Source: Sphaerolaimus hirsutus
Lineage: Eukaryota; Nematoda; Chromadorea; Monhysterida; Sphaerolaimidae
Length of the DNA stretch: 64,000 bases
Direction: 5' to 3'
Assembly: GCA_964036195.1 (NCBI GenBank)
Contig: OZ038460.1
Coordinates: 1,925,504 to 1,989,503 of the forward strand
In this document: positions 3,985-60,699 of the stretch, one piece after another
How positions within the stretch are numbered: position 1 is the first letter of the stretch
How the letters are laid out: the number at the start of each line of letters is the position of its first letter
The notes under the pieces: model-generated
Database searches by the model: none
Told to the model about the DNA's origin: nothing
What the model saw: only the letters and a program-made list of their open reading frames with translations
Position numbers and translations under genes: made by a program

Positions 3985-4168
3985 ATGCTTGTTTACAAAT
4001 ACTTTTTTAAATTTTTTTGCATTTCTTCACAATTACGTTTTCTGTACTCGCATACTTTCAGAGTAAGTGAGACCCAGTATTTTTTCGGGAGGAAACGTAA
4101 ACGTATTTACGCAGTACTCGAGTATACGTATTTATCGAGTAAACGTAAATACGTTTTAACAACTATGC
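3985..4168. mobile_element. Relic of a CAGAGTTG hAT element (ACGTAAACGTA words)
   Basis: ACGTAAACGTATTTACG-type words in both orientations lead into TACGTTTTAACAACTATG, a one-base variant of the CAACTCTG terminus seen at 25735 and 31122. The left end is not clear. The 105-codon frame at 3895-4212 runs through it and is not considered a gene. Confidence 0.55.
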
Positions 4169-24866: not shown

Positions 24867-25735
24867 CAGAGTTGTTAGAATTACTGAACTTTTTTCAAAA
24901 GTATATGTAAACGTAAGTATTTTTTTTTTACTCACCACAAAGTATCGAAAACGTAAAATACTTTTTTTTTACTCGTACGTACGCGTAAATTTGGGTACTT
25001 TTCTTGAAAGTGTAGAAACGACCACTTTTCGTCATTCCTGACGCTACAGCTTTTGTGAGGCGTCAATATTATTTCAAGTGGGTGTAAAGTGGGCACTTTT
25101 TCATGCGTTTACCGCACAACATACCTATGTTTTTGTTTAAGAAAATGATAGAAAACATAGTTTGCAGGGTCTCTTTATTGTAGGAGATAAAAATAGCAAG
25201 AATAGCGGCAACAAAAATACAACCTAACTCATCCAAATCTGGTAAATCACTAGAAACACTTCTTATAATTGAAGCGACTGAAAAGCTCCTTCTCTAATGT
25301 TTCGGGAGCGAGGTGCAACCCTTTCCCAACACAAACCAGTGCCCAGCTTCATCCAGCCCACTTCATCCCCAGCTGGGATTTCAGCGGTACCGGACGAATC
25401 ATCCATTCCATCGTCGCTCTCGCGACTCGTTTCCACTTCGATTGTCTTCGCAGCCATTTCGATTTGGTTGCGTTTTTTTATTTTTAAAGCGCGCTACCCC
25501 CGCGTATCTTTTATATTCAACGGAACCACGTCTGTAAATACATAGCACTGTAGTCACTTTATAAATACCCCCCACATTGAATTTTCTGAAATACATTTTA
25601 TGTACGCGTATGCTTTGAAAATGTACGCGTACGAGTGCGTACAGTATTTTTTTTTAAAGTATATGTAAACGTATTTACCGCGTACGCGCGTACGCGTATT
25701 TTTCGAGTAAACGTACGTACCTTTTAACAACTCTG
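24867..25735. mobile_element. hAT element, CAGAGTTGTTA ends, ACGTAAACGTA words
   Basis: CAGAGTTGTTAGAA / TTTTAACAACTCTG ends with a perfect 8-bp duplication AAGTAAAA (24859-24866 and 25736-25743). ACGTAAACGTA and TACGCGTACG words lie within about 130 bp of each end. The centre contains an ATG-started minus-strand frame at 25263-25457 that looks like a transposase start. It is a deletion derivative, too short to encode a full transposase (usually more than 500 residues in this superfamily). Confidence 0.93.
25263..25457 (-). pseudogene. Putative hAT transposase N-terminal remnant
   Basis: 64 codons from ATG at 25457 to a stop at 25263. It begins MAAKTIEVETSRESDDGMDD and continues with an acidic, Ser/Gly-rich stretch. 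It lies centrally in a hAT element, has GC-rich third positions unlike the flanks, and resembles in style the acidic start MDSDDDVVAVDS in the related element at 54670-55486. No BED finger or catalytic core follows, so it can only be a remnant. Plus-strand frames across the same bases (25269-25545) are shadows. The assignment is inferred from position, not from a domain match. Confidence 0.35.
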
Positions 25736-30630: not shown

Positions 30631-31122
30631 CAGAGTTGTTAAAAGTATTTAGTTGACGTTTTTAAAGTGTTCGTAAACGTAGAGTACTCTGAATTAGCTA
30701 CTGCCCTAGAGTGAAAATGTCAAGTAAATTATTTGACAGGAATACATTGTCGAATGTCAAAATACCTTTGACTCGGAAATAGCTAAAAGGAAACACATTA
30801 GTACTTCAAATATTTACACACATAAAAGTAAAAGTACTTTTGACACTTAAGAAAACGTGAAAAAAACGATTAAAATGCTTTACACAAGAAAACGTGGCAT
30901 TTTTAATGCATAAAAATTTAGGAGCAGCTTTTTCAAGAGAACTATCAAAAATGCAAAACGATACTAGGACGTTATTTGCAATAGTGAATCTGCAAAAAAT
31001 ACGTTTTCATATACTTGAATACTTTGAAAAATATACGCATCAGGAAACATAAAAAGTACTCTTTCGGGAGTAATCGTAAACGTAAAAATTCCAGTAAACG
31101 TAAATACGTTTTCCCAACTCTG
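30631..31122. mobile_element. CAGAGTTGTTAAAA hAT element, older copy
   Basis: CAGAGTTGTTAAAAGTA / ACGTTTTCCCAACTCTG ends. AAACGTAAAAATTCCAGTAA and related words are near the right end. No matching 8-bp duplication remains. The interior has no long frame. Confidence 0.75.
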
Positions 31123-53984: not shown

Positions 53985-55029
53985 TAGAGATTAATATTAA
54001 AATTTAAAGGAACTAAAAAAGTCAGAGGGAAACACTATTTTATTGCAACAACTTCCGGTCTATTCGGTGAGTGAATAATTCACCAGAGAATTGTAAGGTG
54101 TTAAGTAAAGTCAGGAAGTTGAAAAACTTGTACCTGTAAGTAATCGAAAAGTACTTCTCAATACTTTTTATCGATAACTTTTATTGTCTTTTGACTACAA
54201 ATACCATATTCCTTGACAAACTCTGAATTATCATCGAGAACTAAAAAACGCTGAAATCAAATCACAAAAAAGTAGAAAAAATTGGCACTTTTCCAGCAAA
54301 ACCAGGAAATTCCACGTACGATATCACGGCCACAATATCGCCACAATTCACGGACAGGTATCAAATTAATGATACACAGGTGCGCTTCTACTCTGAATGT
54401 CCAAAAATCCCCCAAATACCGTATTTCATCTAATAGAGGTTTCAAATAGAAGGGCGTCTCCTATTAAAGATACATTTTTTCAACATCATTTGGTAACGAA
54501 GTACCGTATTTCCTGGAATTACCCCCGGGGGTTTATTTTTTCAGAGTGAAAATTTTGAGAGAAAAACGTGAAAAATGCAACAATAATAACCATTACTAAG
54601 TTTTTACAGCCTTAAATAAGGATGTAGATGGTATAAACGATGTTCTAACGTAACACAGTAAGTGTTTTGCAGAGTTGCGAAAGCGTATTTACGCTTACCC
54701 GAAATACCCGGGTAAATGGGTATTTATACTTACGCTTACGCTTACGCTTTCATAAAATACCCGTACGCTTTTTTACGCTTTCCCGGCCGAAATACCCGGG
54801 TACGAAAAGCGTAAAAAAGCTTTTCACACGGTTCAGTTTTACACTTTTGAAAAAGCATAAAACCACAAAAAAGAGTGAACGAAACTGCGTACAAAAAAAT
54901 TACTGCGTGCGTGCAGTAATGTGCTGGAAATAGTGGCACATTTACAAATTGTGTCGCAGTATGAATGTCTTGCTAATACTGTGTCGTCGAGCAAAATCGT
55001 GGCTTCAGATACGAAATTTTGGGCTGAAA

Positions 55030-55330
55030 ATGGATTCCGACGACGATGTTGTTGCCGTCGACAGCACTAACTCCAAGTTGGAAGATAAAAAGATGACTTA
55101 CCGTGTTTGTTCTAATAGAACGGCAGCCTCCAATAGAACGGCACCTCCCATAGAACGGCAGGCAAATAAAGTTGACGAAAAAAATTTAAATTGTGCTCTT
55201 CTATTAGAAGAAATACGGTAAGTGCCGCTGCCGATGAATTGCCAAACAACATAAATATGAGGGCAGACTACTAAATGGACGTCCGAAAAATGTACCTGAG
55301 AGCTTGATTTGGAAAGAATTCACTGAGAAA
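55030..55330 (+). pseudogene. Putative hAT transposase N-terminal remnant, split by a MITE
   Basis: ATG at 55030 begins MDSDDDVVAVDSTNSKLEDK, an acidic start. The frame runs into the MITE at 55099-55220. After it, in a different frame, 55268-55320 reads LLNGRPKNVPESLIWKEFTE. GRP followed by a W-x-x-F segment resembles the entry to BED-type DNA-binding domains of hAT transposases. There are stops and a frame change between the two parts, and the subterminal words begin right after, so it is non-functional. The family is inferred from its position in a hAT element plus this short resemblance. Confidence 0.38.
55099..55220. mobile_element. Fourth level: TA-type MITE, AATAGAACGGCA unit
   Basis: TACCGTGTTTGTTCTAATAG / CTATTAGAAGAAATACGGTA, 122 bp, with CCTCC(A/C)ATAGAACGGCA twice. 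A short relative of 42610-43045, inserted into the transposase remnant. Confidence 0.88.
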
Positions 55331-55673
55331 ACGTATCTTAAAAAATTTTTACGCTTACGCTTTTATTTACGCTTCCCAGGTATTTAAAAAATACCTTACG
55401 CTTTAAGTATCCATACTGAAAATTTGGAAAGTGTATTTACGCTTACGCTTACGCTTTCCAAAAATACCGGTATTTTAACAACTCTGGTGTTTTGAACGTC
55501 TGTTATGCATTTCCCGGACCACAAATTCATAGTGCCCATTTTGAGGGGGGGGGTATTTCGAGGGGGGGGGGGGTATTTCGAGGAAGTACGGTAAATAGAA
55601 ATTAGCAGGGGGGGGGGCTAAAAAGTTCATTAAAAAAATCAAAGGGCGCCCTTGTATTAGAAAAAATACGGTA

Positions 55674-56089
55674 AATGTGTCCACGCGAAATTTTGAATTT
55701 TCGCCGCCGCGTGAACCTCAAATCTGCAGTCGAAACCTCAGTTCAAACTTGCGGCCGCGCCGATTTTGCACATGCGATTTTTGATATATTTACGGTAGTA
55801 TTTAGCTTTGCGGACTATACCGGTCACTGGCGGGGAAGTGTTGTTTTAAAGAGGAAATTGTTGTTTTGCGTCTTTGTGTGTGGGAAATGAACTGTGCAAA
55901 ATGACAACTCCTTTTAATTATTATTCATTATGTTTAGTAGGGCACATAAATTATGCATTTTCCGTGTGCAATGACAATGTTTATATTCCTTTGCAAATTT
56001 TGTATTACGTACGTGTTTTATATTTTTTTTCCTGACGTTTGAGTTTTACAGGGTTCCAAAGTCTACAAGTGACATACATAAGTTTTTTT
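55674..56089. other. No supported gene
   Basis: The 71-codon frame at 55675-55890 starts at a non-ATG codon and has no domain. AT-rich beyond 55890. Confidence 0.35.
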
Positions 56090-56300
56090 CCGAAATTTAA
56101 AAAAAATTAAAAAACTGATAGATCAGTTGTGTTTGATGCATTTGAGTTTACCGGAATGGATTTTTCAATCGCAAATACACAGTTGACAGACAATTAGTTG
56201 ACGGACAAATAGTTCAATGACACCTCATTTCGGTAAACTAAAATGCGCTCAAGGTTGATTCGTGAGTTCTCAATTTTTTGACATTTCGCAACTAAAACAC
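56090..56300. mobile_element. Degenerate member of the GTTCAAxxxTGATT family
   Basis: GATCAGTTGTGTTTGATGCA with GAGTTTACCGGAATGG on the left, and CATTTCGGTAAACTAAAATG and CTCAAGGTTGATTCGTGAG on the right. The centre has CACAGTTGACAGACAATTAG. Termini lost. Confidence 0.55.
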
Positions 56301-56342
56301 TCTTTTTTGTAACTTCCCCGCCGCTGCCACTCAAACGGAGTT

Positions 56343-56398
56343 CCGGGGGGGGGGGGGTCTCTGCAAAGTTTGGCCCCCCCCCCCGCGGGCCAGGTGTA
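56343..56398. repeat. G-run / C-run inverted block
   Basis: CCGGGGGGGGGGGGGTCTC and GGCCCCCCCCCCCCGCGGGCC face each other around TGCAAAGTTT. Similar G/C blocks lie at the ends of the CAGGGACGTA hAT MITEs, but no terminal repeat is found here. Confidence 0.45.
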
Positions 56399-56929
56399 AT
56401 GACCATGAGTTCGGAAAATTGCACACAACTGTACATATATTTGTGTATGAGTTTGCGACCGCAAACAAAGGAAATACGACGTGGCATGGGGCTGATTTGA
56501 TATTGTACTTGTACTTTATACTTTTGTATTTGGTATGGTGTAGATTTCTGGTGTTGTATTTATACTGTTGGTGTTATTTACATAAAGTTTGATCAAAAAT
56601 GGTGTGAATAGTGGGCGAAAGTTTTGTGCCAGCTGATGTAGAATATATTTACCTATATGTATGTATTTTATCATGGATGAAAACAGATTTTCGATCCGTA
56701 TTTTTGGGAAATGGACTCATTCGTTAATCAGAGACCAATTGTGCAGGTTGACAAGTGACAAGACGTTTGACAAGTGGAGTTATAAGTAGTAGCAAGTCGA
56801 GCGACAAGTAACCATAGTATACTCTGCGGACCGCATGCTATGCATTTTTCTAAAAAAAACACTCCATCATGACGTCATCATAATTAAATTAATTCCAGCA
56901 AAAAAAATACATGACAGGAAAAAACATTC
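56399..56929. other. AT-rich; isolated TATACTCTGCGGACC end
   Basis: 56817-56838 reads TATACTCTGCGGACCGCATG, a terminus of the TACTCGGCGGAC family without a visible partner. No gene. Confidence 0.4.
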
Positions 56930-57045
56930 CTCGTTTGTGCGCGACTCCGCCTTTTTCTTTTTTCAATATATTTCTTTTTGTGAAAGTGCATACATAAGTA
57001 TCCAGCTCGCACGTTATCGACCAAGACATAAAATTCTTTCTTCAA
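56930..57045. repeat. Empty-site copy of the 44215-44560 repeat
   Basis: Read on the minus strand, TGTCTTGGTCGATAACG ... GGATACTTATGTATGCACTT runs on through TTCACAAAAAGAAAT to AAAGGCGGAGTCGCG without interruption. At 44279-44475 a MITE sits at the TA in the middle of this sequence. Both copies also encode YISIQLxRYRPRHK in one frame; this is probably repeat homology, though a protein origin is possible. Confidence 0.8.
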
Positions 57046-57141
57046 TTAGGTGGATTTATTCCGACTCACGTCTGTGTACTCCCGATTTATCCATTGGTTG
57101 GTTGGACTTCCAAACAACAATGGCAAAAACACACATATTAA

Positions 57142-58225
57142 ATACGGAAACTCAGTGAGTTTCCGTGTTTTTGTTTAACACGGAAACACGGAAACTCAGC
57201 AATTTTGAAAAACACGGAAACTCAAAGGAGTTTTTTTTCAGAGAACACGGAAACACGGAAACACAGAAAATACGGAAATGTTTTTTGAGTTTTTTTCAGG
57301 CACATGATTTGAACTGAACAATGTGAGTATGAACATACATACTGTATGTGTGTGTAGTATTTTTATATGTATTTGCATGAGTCAGTTTATCAGGCTCTCA
57401 ATAAACATGTTTCTGATGAGCTGACATGGTTTTTGCAAAAGAATGTGATGATTTGATGAAAAAAAAGATTTTGCTGCTGTCAAGTTTTGGTGTGGTTTTG
57501 GAGACAAGGCGGTGTATTTACTTAGCATGCCAGTGTCCACTGACAGTGTGGAGGGTCCCTTAAGCCAGTGCCCAGGATATTGGGCGCTAGGCATCTCCAT
57601 ATGAACCCATTTTCTCTTGAACGTGATTTTTTGTTGAAATTTAATATGAGGTGTTTTGGGATGGGTAAGTAGTTCAGATATGTTGAAGGCTTCAACGATG
57701 TGCATGTTCAGATATAGTTGCAGTTTAATCACACAGTACAACATACAGTGCACATCCATTGAAGTATTTTATTGTACAGTGTGAATTGTCGTTTTTTTGA
57801 CATTTTGTTGATGCTTATGCTTATTTGGACATGCTTATTTTTTGATTTTGTGGACTGTAGTGGACATTTTTGTGGACTTTTTGACACATGAACAAATATG
57901 CAGATCCTCAATACGTGAAACATCTATATCAGCAAAACCTACAGCAAAACCTATATTTATATGATAAGAAAACCCCTGTTTTCACATCAAAATGCTGTAA
58001 AATGCAACTTTTTGTTAGAAAACTTGAGTTTTTACCAAAAAAACTTGAGTTTTTACTAAAAAACTTGAGTTTTTACCAAAAAACTTGAGTTTTTACAGGA
58101 AAACTTGAGTTTTTTAAAAAAACACTGAAATAAAACACAGAAACTCAAGTTTTTTTCATGAAAAAAACTCAAAACACAGGTATTCATTTTTGAAAAACTC
58201 AAAACACAGAAAGTGTTTTTTATTT
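57142..58225. mobile_element. Possible element bounded by ACGGAAACAC and AACTTGAGTTTTT blocks
   Basis: 57142-57290 is made of ACACGGAAAC(T/A)C words in both orientations. 57975-58225 is made of AAAACTTGAGTTTTTAC (17-bp, four direct copies) and AAAAACTCAAAACACAG words. The ~680 bp between is unique and contains a 125-codon minus-strand frame (57382-57759) without a domain. The two blocks may be subterminal arrays of one element; no duplication or terminal repeat was found. Confidence 0.45.
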
Positions 58226-59195
58226 GAGAACTTACCCATCGTTGCTTCCAAAATTGAATTTTTCACCGCCAAATTGAAATGTGAAACGCGTGGAAAATGT
58301 TTGCAAAAATTTGAATTTCACAATCTAATAAAGGTGAGTGGCCGATTCGGTCCGTCTGTCAGCCACAATGCAAAGTTCACTTTTGCAGTACAAAAATACT
58401 GTCGGATAAAATACATGCACTGGACATGATTCGAAATTGGGTAGATACCTATGTATTTTACATGGGTTGTTTTGTTTGTCTCTGTTTGAATTAAAATAGA
58501 AAAATGAGGAAAATTTAGTAAAGATATAAGAGTCAAAATGTGTTATACAGGTGGGACAAAATCCATGCAAAGAATGTACCTAGCTGTATTTTGATGAATA
58601 AAGGCACCTGAAAATCGTGCACCAAATCACTAATTAAAATTATTTTATTTATTATTTTTATTTAGTTGAGAGTTGATGATACTTGATAGAAATGTAATGA
58701 AAAGAGAAAACATGATGTTTTTTTTTCTTCTTTATATGGCCCGTAAATACCATAAATAGATGATATGCTCGCTGCATAAAATTTATATCATACCTTTTTA
58801 CAGGGGGGGGGGGTTCTTTTCAAGAGGAGCTATTCCGAGGATGGAACCAATAGAGAAGTTACGGTATCCATAATAGCCGAGATGCATACTTGATATAAAT
58901 ACGACAAACATGAATATGACAAATAACATGGAGACTACAAAACTTCAAGGTCACTGAGTTTTATATCAGTATCAAAATTTGCCCAATTTGCTCAACAGAA
59001 TACACAATGCCTTCTCAAAAGTATTTACAAATAAATATCGGGTAGTGGTAAAAGTTTGTATTATTTTTAAGGTTTGTTAGTGTGAAAAATTTGTAGCCAA
59101 ATTTAAAAAAATGGAAATTAAAGATCAGTTATTTTTGTCGCTCAGATCAGATCCAATAAAAATAGAACAAAACCGTTTTGGGGAGGAAAATGCAC
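58226..59195. other. No supported gene; repeat fragments
   Basis: 58585-58630 matches 45088-45131. G-run at 58803-58813 with GAGCTATTCCGAGG and TTACGGTA (58800-58865) looks like a TA-type MITE relic. The rest is AT-rich. Confidence 0.4.
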
Positions 59196-59580
59196 TTGTT
59201 GACTTCTTGCACTCGAGAACATTTTTGTTCCTGCCGGCGTTGCGCCTGCCTTATGGGAAATTTATGGACTTGTTGACTTTTAGAATTCGGTGTCCATGAT
59301 GGACTTATCACATTTCTTGCGTTTTTTTCTCCAATAAAATAAGGCTGCGGAAGGTGGACTTGTCGACTTTTAGCCCAAAACTAAGTGGACTTGTCGACTT
59401 CTTGCCCAAACTTTTTGCATTTTTCCCTGAAAATGTCAAATTTGGCGCTTTGCCATATGGGCATGTGAGGTAAAAATTTTTTATGGAAAATAATGAAAAA
59501 TGTGCGGGAGTAGCCCCAGATGACGTTGCCGGGCCTCACTCAAAATTTTCATATTTTGGACTTGTCGACTTTTAGAATGG
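59196..59580. repeat. Interspersed GGACTTGTCGACTTTTAG words
   Basis: Five or six copies of (G)GACTTGT(C/T)GACTT followed by TTAG or CTTGC at about 59195, 59267, 59357, 59382 and 59557, with a partial copy at 59305. They are separated by unrelated sequence, not in tandem. All are in the same orientation although the core GTCGAC is palindromic. It may be a subterminal-word region of an unrecognised MITE. Confidence 0.6.
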
Positions 59581-59788
59581 ACGCCTCAATTGTAGACTAT
59601 ATTTATGGTATCACAAATGTCAACTGTTTTCGTGAACTGACGCGAGGCAGATATGAACAAGACCAGTTTCTAGTTGACCGCTGGCTGAAAGTCAATTGGT
59701 ACGTGTAGCCAAACAGTTCCAAAACCCGACAAACTTCACAGAGGCCGCTTCACGCACATCACACGTGCATTTTCTGACGTCACTGAAA

Positions 59789-60584
59789 CAGAGTTGTTAA
59801 AATACCGGTATTTTTGGAAAGTGTAAGTGTAAGTGTAAATACACTTTCCAAATTTTGAGTATGGATACCAAAAGTGTAAGGTATTTTAAAAATACCTAGG
59901 GAAGTGTAAAAAAAAGTGTAAGTGTAAAAAATTTTTTTAAAAAAAAGCTCTCACTGTTGAGCATTAGAATACACCACTGTTTTCACCTTCAGATCAATAT
60001 ATTTGTCATTTTTATGCATCATTTCACATTTTACTGCCTTTTATGAAACATTTCAGACTGTAGCAAATACTGTAGTGGTATGAAGTTCACTAATAATGGC
60101 ACTTTTTCAGTGTTGATTTTTACTGATTAAGCAATGCGATACACACTGCTTAAATGCAAGATTGGACATGCAGCAAATGTCAATGCAAAAGCCAGTTGAC
60201 TTTGTGTCCAGCTGGTGAATTTCCATTGATCTTGTCCTTTTTACAAAAGTATGATGAAACTAGAATAAATACCATGAGTACTGATCAAAGGTTGGAGATC
60301 AAAGGCCACTTTGTACATTTGCCATATTTTCTACATTCAATGCATAACTGCATGTGTGCACTGTGCAGTTATTTTTTGTACATGACCCTATTTTATGCTT
60401 TCTCAAAAGCATAAAACAGGGCCATCTGAAAGAAAAAAATACACTTTCTGTACCCGGGTATTTTACTCAGGAAAGTGTAAAAAAAGTGTATGGGTATTTT
60501 ATGAAAGTGTAAGTGTAAGTGTAAATATAAATACCCATTTACCCGGGTATTTCGGGTAAGTGTAAATACACTTTCGCAACTCTG
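59789..60584. mobile_element. hAT element, CAGAGTTG ends, AAGTGTA words
   Basis: CAGAGTTGTTAAAATACC / CACTTTCGCAACTCTG with a perfect 8-bp duplication CACTGAAA (59781-59788 and 60585-60592). Both ends align, inverted, with 54670-55486 almost base for base over about 100 bp each, except that nearly every AAGCGTA there is AAGTGTA here. The middle contains TTATGCTTTCTCAAAAGCATAA near 60393. The 86-codon frame at 60154-60414 has several Cys but no recognised domain. Confidence 0.95.
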
Positions 60585-60699
60585 CACTGAAAATCGACAA
60601 ATTTTCATCTACGTATGCCAATTTTTCGATAGATGAAAAACGATAGGAACTTTCCGCACAGCCAGCGTATAAATTTCAAACAGAAAGAGTAATTTGTGA

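Follow-up and report, generated by a model that had tools for sequence, protein, structure and literature searches.

Three spellings of a subterminal word divide related hAT transposons of the nematode Sphaerolaimus hirsutus into genome-wide classes

Introduction

Recognition of subterminal repeats by hAT transposases is already known from several systems. For Hermes, the accessible part of the source describes a BED domain that binds AAGT followed by AT-rich DNA, and isolated AAGC weakly, with several BED domains acting jointly on short subterminal repeats (PMC10368747). The portion available on the maize Ac/Ds system describes multiple subterminal AAACGG hexamers bound by the transposase, together with large non-autonomous families of differing bodies (PMC3260210), and for Herves the excerpted account gives a motif, CG/AATTCAT, that is subterminal at both ends and confers element specificity (PMC3143072). 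Comparable features are found in a window of the nematode Sphaerolaimus hirsutus (the whole stretch analyzed, 64,000 nucleotides; assembly GCA_964036195.1, contig OZ038460.1, positions 1,925,504 to 1,989,503), where two short hAT copies carry many subterminal copies of a 7-bp word, spelled AAGCGTA in one copy and AAGTGTA in the other. An initial annotation, made from the letters of the window, had proposed that this difference is a coordinated change over the whole element, brought about as the elements co-evolved with a transposase of new specificity or were captured by one, or else by gene conversion. Here we compare the two copies, place them among three word classes spread over the genome, and weigh the possible causes.

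Results

Two copies in the window differ identically in every switched word

The first copy occupies 54670..55486 on the + strand (817 bp) and the second, inverted with respect to it, 59789..60584 on the - strand (796 bp). Both end in the terminal inverted repeat (TIR) CAGAGTTG...CAACTCTG; short TIRs of the CAGNG type are the rule in the hAT superfamily. Each is flanked by a perfect 8-bp target-site duplication of the hAT kind, GTGTTTTG at 54662..54669 and 55487..55494 for the first copy and CACTGAAA at 59781..59788 (low side) and 60585..60592 (high side) for the second. Being short, with TIRs and duplications and with coding sequence present at most as remnants, both resemble miniature inverted-repeat transposable elements (MITEs). 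Eight copies of the word lie by each end. In the first copy, which we assign to a C class, the left cluster (54681..54813) holds eight AAGCGTA, including an inverted pair AAGCGTA-TT-TACGCTT and a 6-bp tandem (TTACGC)3, and the right cluster (55350..55456) holds seven AAGCGTA and a forward AAGTGTA at 55429-55435; in the second, assigned to a T class, both the left cluster (60440..60573) and the right cluster (59819..59926) consist of eight AAGTGTA. Over their full lengths the C-class copy has 15 AAGCGTA and 2 AAGTGTA, and the T-class copy 16 AAGTGTA and no AAGCGTA. The window as a whole holds 54 AAGYGTA words against 16.1 expected.

As the initial annotation had observed, the ends of the two copies align almost base by base in inverted orientation. 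The alignment spans some 125 bp at the left end and some 145 bp at the right end; the interiors gave no mutual match at E 1e-5. All 14 aligned AAGCGTA words of the C-class copy read AAGTGTA in the T-class copy (one of them beside a 1-base gap), and none reads AAGCATA, so that both the switch and the lack of the opposite CpG product were correctly described; a further word is AAGTGTA in both copies. The annotation had also noted a single AAGTGTA in the C-class copy, near 55430. The word is present, but it is not the only one, a second lying at 54840, and it is no stray, since the same forward word stands in 25 of the 26 uniform AAGCGTA right ends that were listed. The proposed count of changes inside and outside the words was also carried out. 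None of the 14 CpGs in words of the C-class copy is kept in the T-class copy, as opposed to 5 of the 9 outside words (Fisher p 0.004). The overall rate of difference, at 14/100 word columns versus 16/183 other columns (p 0.22), cautions against overstating the switch: what is remarkable in this pair is that every word is altered, and all in the same way, rather than an excess of differing columns.

Three word classes are found throughout the genome

Clustering elements by their word, as the initial annotation had suggested, yielded three classes, one of which it had missed. These are the A class with AAACGTA (prefix CAGAGTTG followed by G or C), the C class with AAGCGTA (prefix CAGAGTTGCG) and the T class with AAGTGTA (same prefix as C). 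In the 348-Mb genome, 4511 places fit the left-end form CAGAGTTGNNAAANNNTATTTANNNTTACC and 3866 fit the right-end form, and reversed-pattern controls gave none of either. Exact left ends number 1247 for A, 1072 for C and 962 for T.

Word pairing and the joining of ends were studied in the first 100 left and first 100 right ends, all within the first 10.2 Mb of contig C1, and this confinement makes the joined sample a non-random one. The left ends comprised 34 AA, 26 TT, 25 CC, 5 TC and 1 CA pairs, along with 9 having a non-canonical word, giving same-class pairs in 85 of 91 (shuffles: mean 30.4, maximum 48). A listed right end was found for 66 of the 100 left ends and none for the other 34; the joining left out 17 of the 100 right ends, none of which had a listed left end in range. 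Among the 66 joined elements, the left class equaled the majority class on the right in 64 of the 64 that could be tested (shuffles: mean 21.5, maximum 35), and all four scored inverted words were identical in 56. Of 35 left ends examined for duplications, 22 had within reach a right end whose flank matched in 7 or more of the 8 duplication bases, and 13 yielded no such right end. Chance as the source of the word pattern is rejected by these shuffles of left-end and left-right pairing and by those of the window, none of 100 of which reached 54 words. The coordinated change seen in the window therefore extends to families across the genome, and the smooth mixture of words that, according to the initial annotation, would speak for decay was looked for and not seen, although a mixed minority exists (5/100 left ends with forward AAGTGTA and inverted AAGCGTA).

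Two of the listed elements, L023 and L024 (C1, ~3.67 and ~4.00 Mb), apparently lie in a duplicated region and entered the counts separately; each has a similar pair of C-class insertions, the first of which lies beside CTGTGGAC in both places.

Words are better conserved than the adjoining end sequence

Consensus ends were built for each class, with mixed elements assigned by their commonest word; the A consensus stems from 3 left and 2 right ends and the T right consensus from 4. Between C and T, 7/47 word columns differ on the left, all by one and the same change on the word strand (5/87 other columns), and 7/53 on the right, again by one change (10/101 others). Between A and C the left ends differ in 7/47 word columns, once more by a single change (10/88 others), and the right ends in 9/52, of which 6 represent the class change (14/102 others). 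The C and T consensus ends are the nearest to each other.

Mismatches to the class consensus were counted in 11 C and 8 T elements, with 2 mixed elements left out and 3 A elements given no rate; sorting by words favors a result of the following kind. In the C class, words show 3/505 mismatches on the left and 3/572 on the right, compared with 34/962 and 87/1118 in the rest of the end; in the T class the figures are 2/368 and 16/417 compared with 18/702 and 57/783. The deficit in words relative to neighboring end sequence is thus about 6-15-fold in C, 5-fold in T left and 2-fold in T right ends. The words are better conserved than the sequence beside them, an indirect sign of putative transposase binding. 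The number of units in the tandem (TTACGC)n varies both within the C and within the T class.

Transposase genes and remnants

A hAT gene with introns, representing an outgroup lineage, lies at C3:39900-46400 (L063, L065, L074; the stretch stops short of the left end). A translation joined by eye from its exons gives matches to the hAT dimerisation domain (3e-16) and, marginally, to zf-BED (7e-4), where the score of 20.0 bits falls slightly short of the 20.6 cut-off; a match to Hermes structures (8e-13) covers the final 68 residues of the transposase. The BED recognition loop would correspond to the GGAGNLVKHVRRKH region. Beyond the right end, Tc1-like transposase coding sequence (SPDLNPIEPIWGL) was recognized by eye, and the C3 gene accordingly seems to be inserted in or beside another transposon.

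Some elements of the A and T classes retain the C-terminus of a transposase. On contig C7, an A element of 1266 bp (duplication CATGGTGC) is a deletion derivative whose C-terminus matches PF05699 (4.5e-13), so that the hAT dimerisation domain is found in an element with the same ends; on C2, a T element of 1053 bp (duplication CCTGGTAG), free of A and C words, is a deletion derivative with a C-terminal piece of 46 aa that has no Pfam match of its own. These two C-termini are 77% identical over 52 aa. The A-word elements with such C-termini are L066, L067 and L070, the latter two being A-word right ends, and the T-word element is L068/L073. C elements hold an apparent N-terminal start and an apparent beginning of a BED exon. 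In the window copy, the apparent coding remnants are MDSDDDVVAVDSTNSKLEDKK at 55030..55092 (+), seen in translation and similar in several other C-class copies, and GRPKNVPESLIWKEFTEK at 55277..55330 (+), apparently the start of the BED-finger exon, which by eye shares 9 of 18 residues with the C3 exon GHPKRLGDSFIWREFVDK. More of the first BED exon, as far as CRHC, is recognizable by eye in the C-class elements L086 and L087 (tblastn E ~0.11 each; the L086 piece is without Pfam match), which show this exon alone; L089 is a C-class right end. No BED finger was seen in A or T elements. Judging from these pieces, the A and T words each go with a transposase gene lineage, and the C word probably with a BED-type N-terminus.

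The PF05699 profile marks 28 places in the genome. With the C3 exons, tblastn gave at least 119 matches (134 of 165 candidates scored), most of them to the C-terminal part, and with the A C-terminus at least 149 (150 of 274 candidates scored); in a further tblastn with C3 exons, strong matches outside the C3 gene were to the BED part alone (36 matches, E up to 1). The candidate places examined held derivatives only, and the eight C-terminus places included five with A-type words and none with C- or T-class ends. Two BED-like places, L075 and L076, have no CAGAGTTG in the examined stretch; L075 (C1:12784300-12788300) encodes two tandem BED-type N-termini with recognition segments GGAGNLVKHVRRMH and GGTGNLVKHVRRKH, possibly hAT-derived genes.

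Outgroup, mixed and nested elements

The initial annotation had named further family members in the window. That at 24867..25735 is indeed a related CAGAGTTG element with words GTAAACGTA and an 8-bp duplication AAGTAAAA, belonging to the outgroup lineage, whereas no exact CAGAGTTG is present at 3985. The interior of the 24867-25735 element contains, at window positions 25253-25393 (C16:1950756-1950896; tblastn and also by eye), the antisense of the C3 transposase C-terminus, which suggests that the element arose from the C3 hAT gene by deletion. A CAGAGTTG-ended element at 30631-31122 has no matching target duplication (CCAACGGA against AAAATCCC). Five places elsewhere (L078, L079, L080, L082, L083) have A-type words, partly decayed, with the TIR CAACACTG in place of CAACTCTG, and hold C-terminus pieces 64-82% identical to the A element; there the TIR has changed and the words have stayed. 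Because AAACGTA occurs both in the outgroup (the C3 lineage and 24867-25735) and in these CAACACTG-TIR elements, A is probably the ancestral spelling. Two nested insertions were seen, each with its own duplication, one of an A copy within a T copy and the other of a C copy within an A copy, so A was still mobile after T copies arose.

Mixed-word elements with bodies of the AAGTGTA family had escaped the initial annotation. L015 has 7 C words, 4 T words and 3 AAGCATA, and its interior is 76-79% identical over 203-221 bp to five of six small T elements; L017 has 8 C words, 4 T words and 1 AAGCATA, and is about 70% identical over 517-534 bp to four of six. In a word-masked tree (26 elements, 214 columns; L034, with a duplicated right end, was left out, and L017 and L020, with right ends lacking a matching duplication, were taken in), L015 and L017 join seven T elements in one clade (ultrafast bootstrap 94), while the T element with the transposase piece branches elsewhere, beside a C element, with support of 32. 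Strict monophyly of T is disfavored by the approximately unbiased (AU) test (p 0.017) and by that test alone, the Kishino-Hasegawa (0.07) and Shimodaira-Hasegawa (0.09) tests not rejecting it at 5%; adding L015 and L017 to T gives a grouping that the AU test does not reject (p 0.51). A single origin of the T words is to this extent disfavored, and repeated switching to T words is suggested by the trees. We regard L015 and L017 as the clearest sign that words changed inside one body lineage. Given that the TC state is seen in 5/100 left ends and the reverse in 0/100, the forward word perhaps changes more easily. L025 has TC left words on a C body (94% identical to L021), and L004 is weakly nearer to C bodies.

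Discussion

We suggest that both copies in the window belong to a single hAT transposon, as short non-autonomous representatives of two of its subfamilies, and that their 7-bp words are subterminal repeats which BED zinc fingers would read several at once in finding and pairing the ends. A transposase lineage whose preference shifted at one position would favor copies with altered words; because many words would be read together, elements in which all sites match would be favored, giving the uniform spelling. At least two such respellings may have occurred on this scaffold, from AAACGTA, probably ancestral, to AAGCGTA (position 3) and then to AAGTGTA (position 4). The explanation we prefer and consider reasonably probable is that BED fingers bind the words and that, with the divergence of transposase lineages, the words of an element changed spelling together, each class having its own recognition. 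A larger claim is put forward more tentatively: of some fifteen transposase sites, all or nearly all would have changed spelling at least twice, leaving three mobilization networks without a common transposase, together with partly respelled relatives that survive, such as L015 and L017, themselves also partly decayed; the T step may have been eased since thymine mimics 5-methyl-cytosine. The transposase of new specificity invoked by the initial annotation would fit with the C-termini in A- and T-word elements, but the searches yielded no BED recognition loop for any of the three classes by which specificity could be compared.

Several further observations weigh against class-specific recognition. 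No whole transposase gene of the A, C or T class was found among the places examined, which were a minority of those matching, and an autonomous copy may thus have escaped notice; C-class elements showed no C-terminus, and the single one seen in the T class is decayed. Not every word follows its class, given that the right-end forward word is usually off-class, being AAAGGTA in 33 of 33 uniform A right ends and AAGTGTA in nearly all uniform C right ends; this site is perhaps unread or read differently, to be compared with the left-right asymmetry of Hermes. Of 2218 left ends with CGAAAG, 181 are neither exact C, exact T nor the mirror product, and among the 66 joined elements 4 are TC and 2 have one C word among T words. 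The TC state occurs in the T-bodied L015 and L017 as well as in the C-bodied L025 and therefore does not mark one stage of a single orderly path; the decay visible in L004 and L015 likewise speaks against a neat ladder.

The simplest alternative, ordinary decay of AAGCGTA by methylation-driven deamination, is suggested by the position of the C-to-T change at a CpG and by a slight CpG depletion of the window (observed/expected 0.895 for CpG, 1.22 for TpG, 1.18 for CpA), and such decay does occur in some copies (L004, L015). It should, however, yield both products, as it does among the off-class tandem words of the 100 listed right ends (5 AAATGTA and 4 AAACATA in the A class; 2 AAGTGTA and 5 AAGCATA in the C class). 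Left ends with two AAGTGTA number 962 in the genome against 3 with two AAGCATA, which in our view refutes decay as the cause: since decaying copies show both products, the T class is not a decayed C class. With over half of the CpGs outside words kept in the window pair, and with a difference between AAACGTA and AAGCGTA that involves no CpG change, we find this explanation scarcely credible. An escape from host methylation, in which the T word lost the only CpG of the site, so that host CpG methylation would cease to influence binding, and a BED finger already accepting 5-methyl-cytosine would also accept thymine with its identical methyl group, is very improbable for two of the same reasons, the A-to-C difference being left unexplained and those other CpGs having been kept. 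In its favor, AAGTGTA is free of CpG, and a change in the C-to-T direction leaves the methyl group in place on the word strand; inhibition of Ac transposition by hypermethylated DNA is also cited in the available part of PMC3260210.

Only marginally less improbable is the spread of one spelling by gene conversion or template switching during gap repair. Slippage evidently occurs in the tandem (TTACGC)n, whose variable unit number could spread a new unit, and right-end triples of the kinds C-T-T and C-T-C are seen (2/100 each among the listed right ends), but the switch also reached lone words that do not belong to the tandem, at either end and in either orientation, and class-specific differences remain between the switched words. 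A single transposase that tolerates all spellings, with each class descending from one or a few master copies whose uniform words were inherited, is unlikely in our judgment, yet deserves more weight than these. It agrees with the lack of any class-specific BED domain among the sequences seen and with the nested A-in-T and C-in-A copies, by which the classes were probably active at overlapping times. From the accessible parts of the respective sources, the Hermes BED domain can hold two related motifs through alternative side-chain positions (PMC10368747), the Ac transposase is said to interact with hexamer-related sequences (PMC3260210) and hobo to mobilize Hermes (PMC3517528). Tolerance leaves unexplained how a master copy came to have nearly every word identically changed, and drift under it predicts mixtures within elements, yet four identical words are the prevailing state in joined elements; bodies that are related, moreover, can bear mainly C words (L015, L017) or T words throughout.

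If the larger claim of repeated respelling into three separate networks is correct, these elements would hold a visible record of protein-DNA specificity co-evolving across many sites together. How the specificity of a protein can change when it is bound to recognize many sites is an open question in regulatory evolution, and with thousands of copies in three spellings, some of them mixed, within one genome, the path is open to reconstruction. The system may further illustrate how related transposons cease to depend on one another's transposase. As a caution, repeat copies may differ by C-to-T at a CpG for reasons other than decay.

Comparison with known systems

A literature search, with most subscription papers outside its reach, found no report of a hAT scaffold divided genome-wide by a one-letter change in its subterminal words, and a class split by respelled words is apparently unreported. 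The coral MITEs described in the available part of PMC2872659 are piggyBac-like and unrelated. The Mar MITEs of Drosophila are likewise a non-autonomous hAT family thought to be mobilized in trans, and the accessible part of that source mentions no word classes (PMC3517528). Ds classes of maize differ in hexamer number, the consulted portion mentioning no class with a respelled hexamer (PMC3260210), and Herves shows single-nucleotide variants within one element, with no class-wide switch mentioned in the excerpt (PMC3143072). The left end of Hermes of the house fly, in the part of the source available, also has short words beside the TIR, an inverted pair with more repeats after it, and an AAGT/AAGC core (PMC10368747). 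The AAGT in the T word and the AAGC in the C word may be a coincidence, because the BED domain here differs from that of Hermes. As far as that same part goes, Hermes is a single element that has repeats of its own, whereas the S. hirsutus elements form three genome-wide classes that differ by one letter in nearly all of their words.

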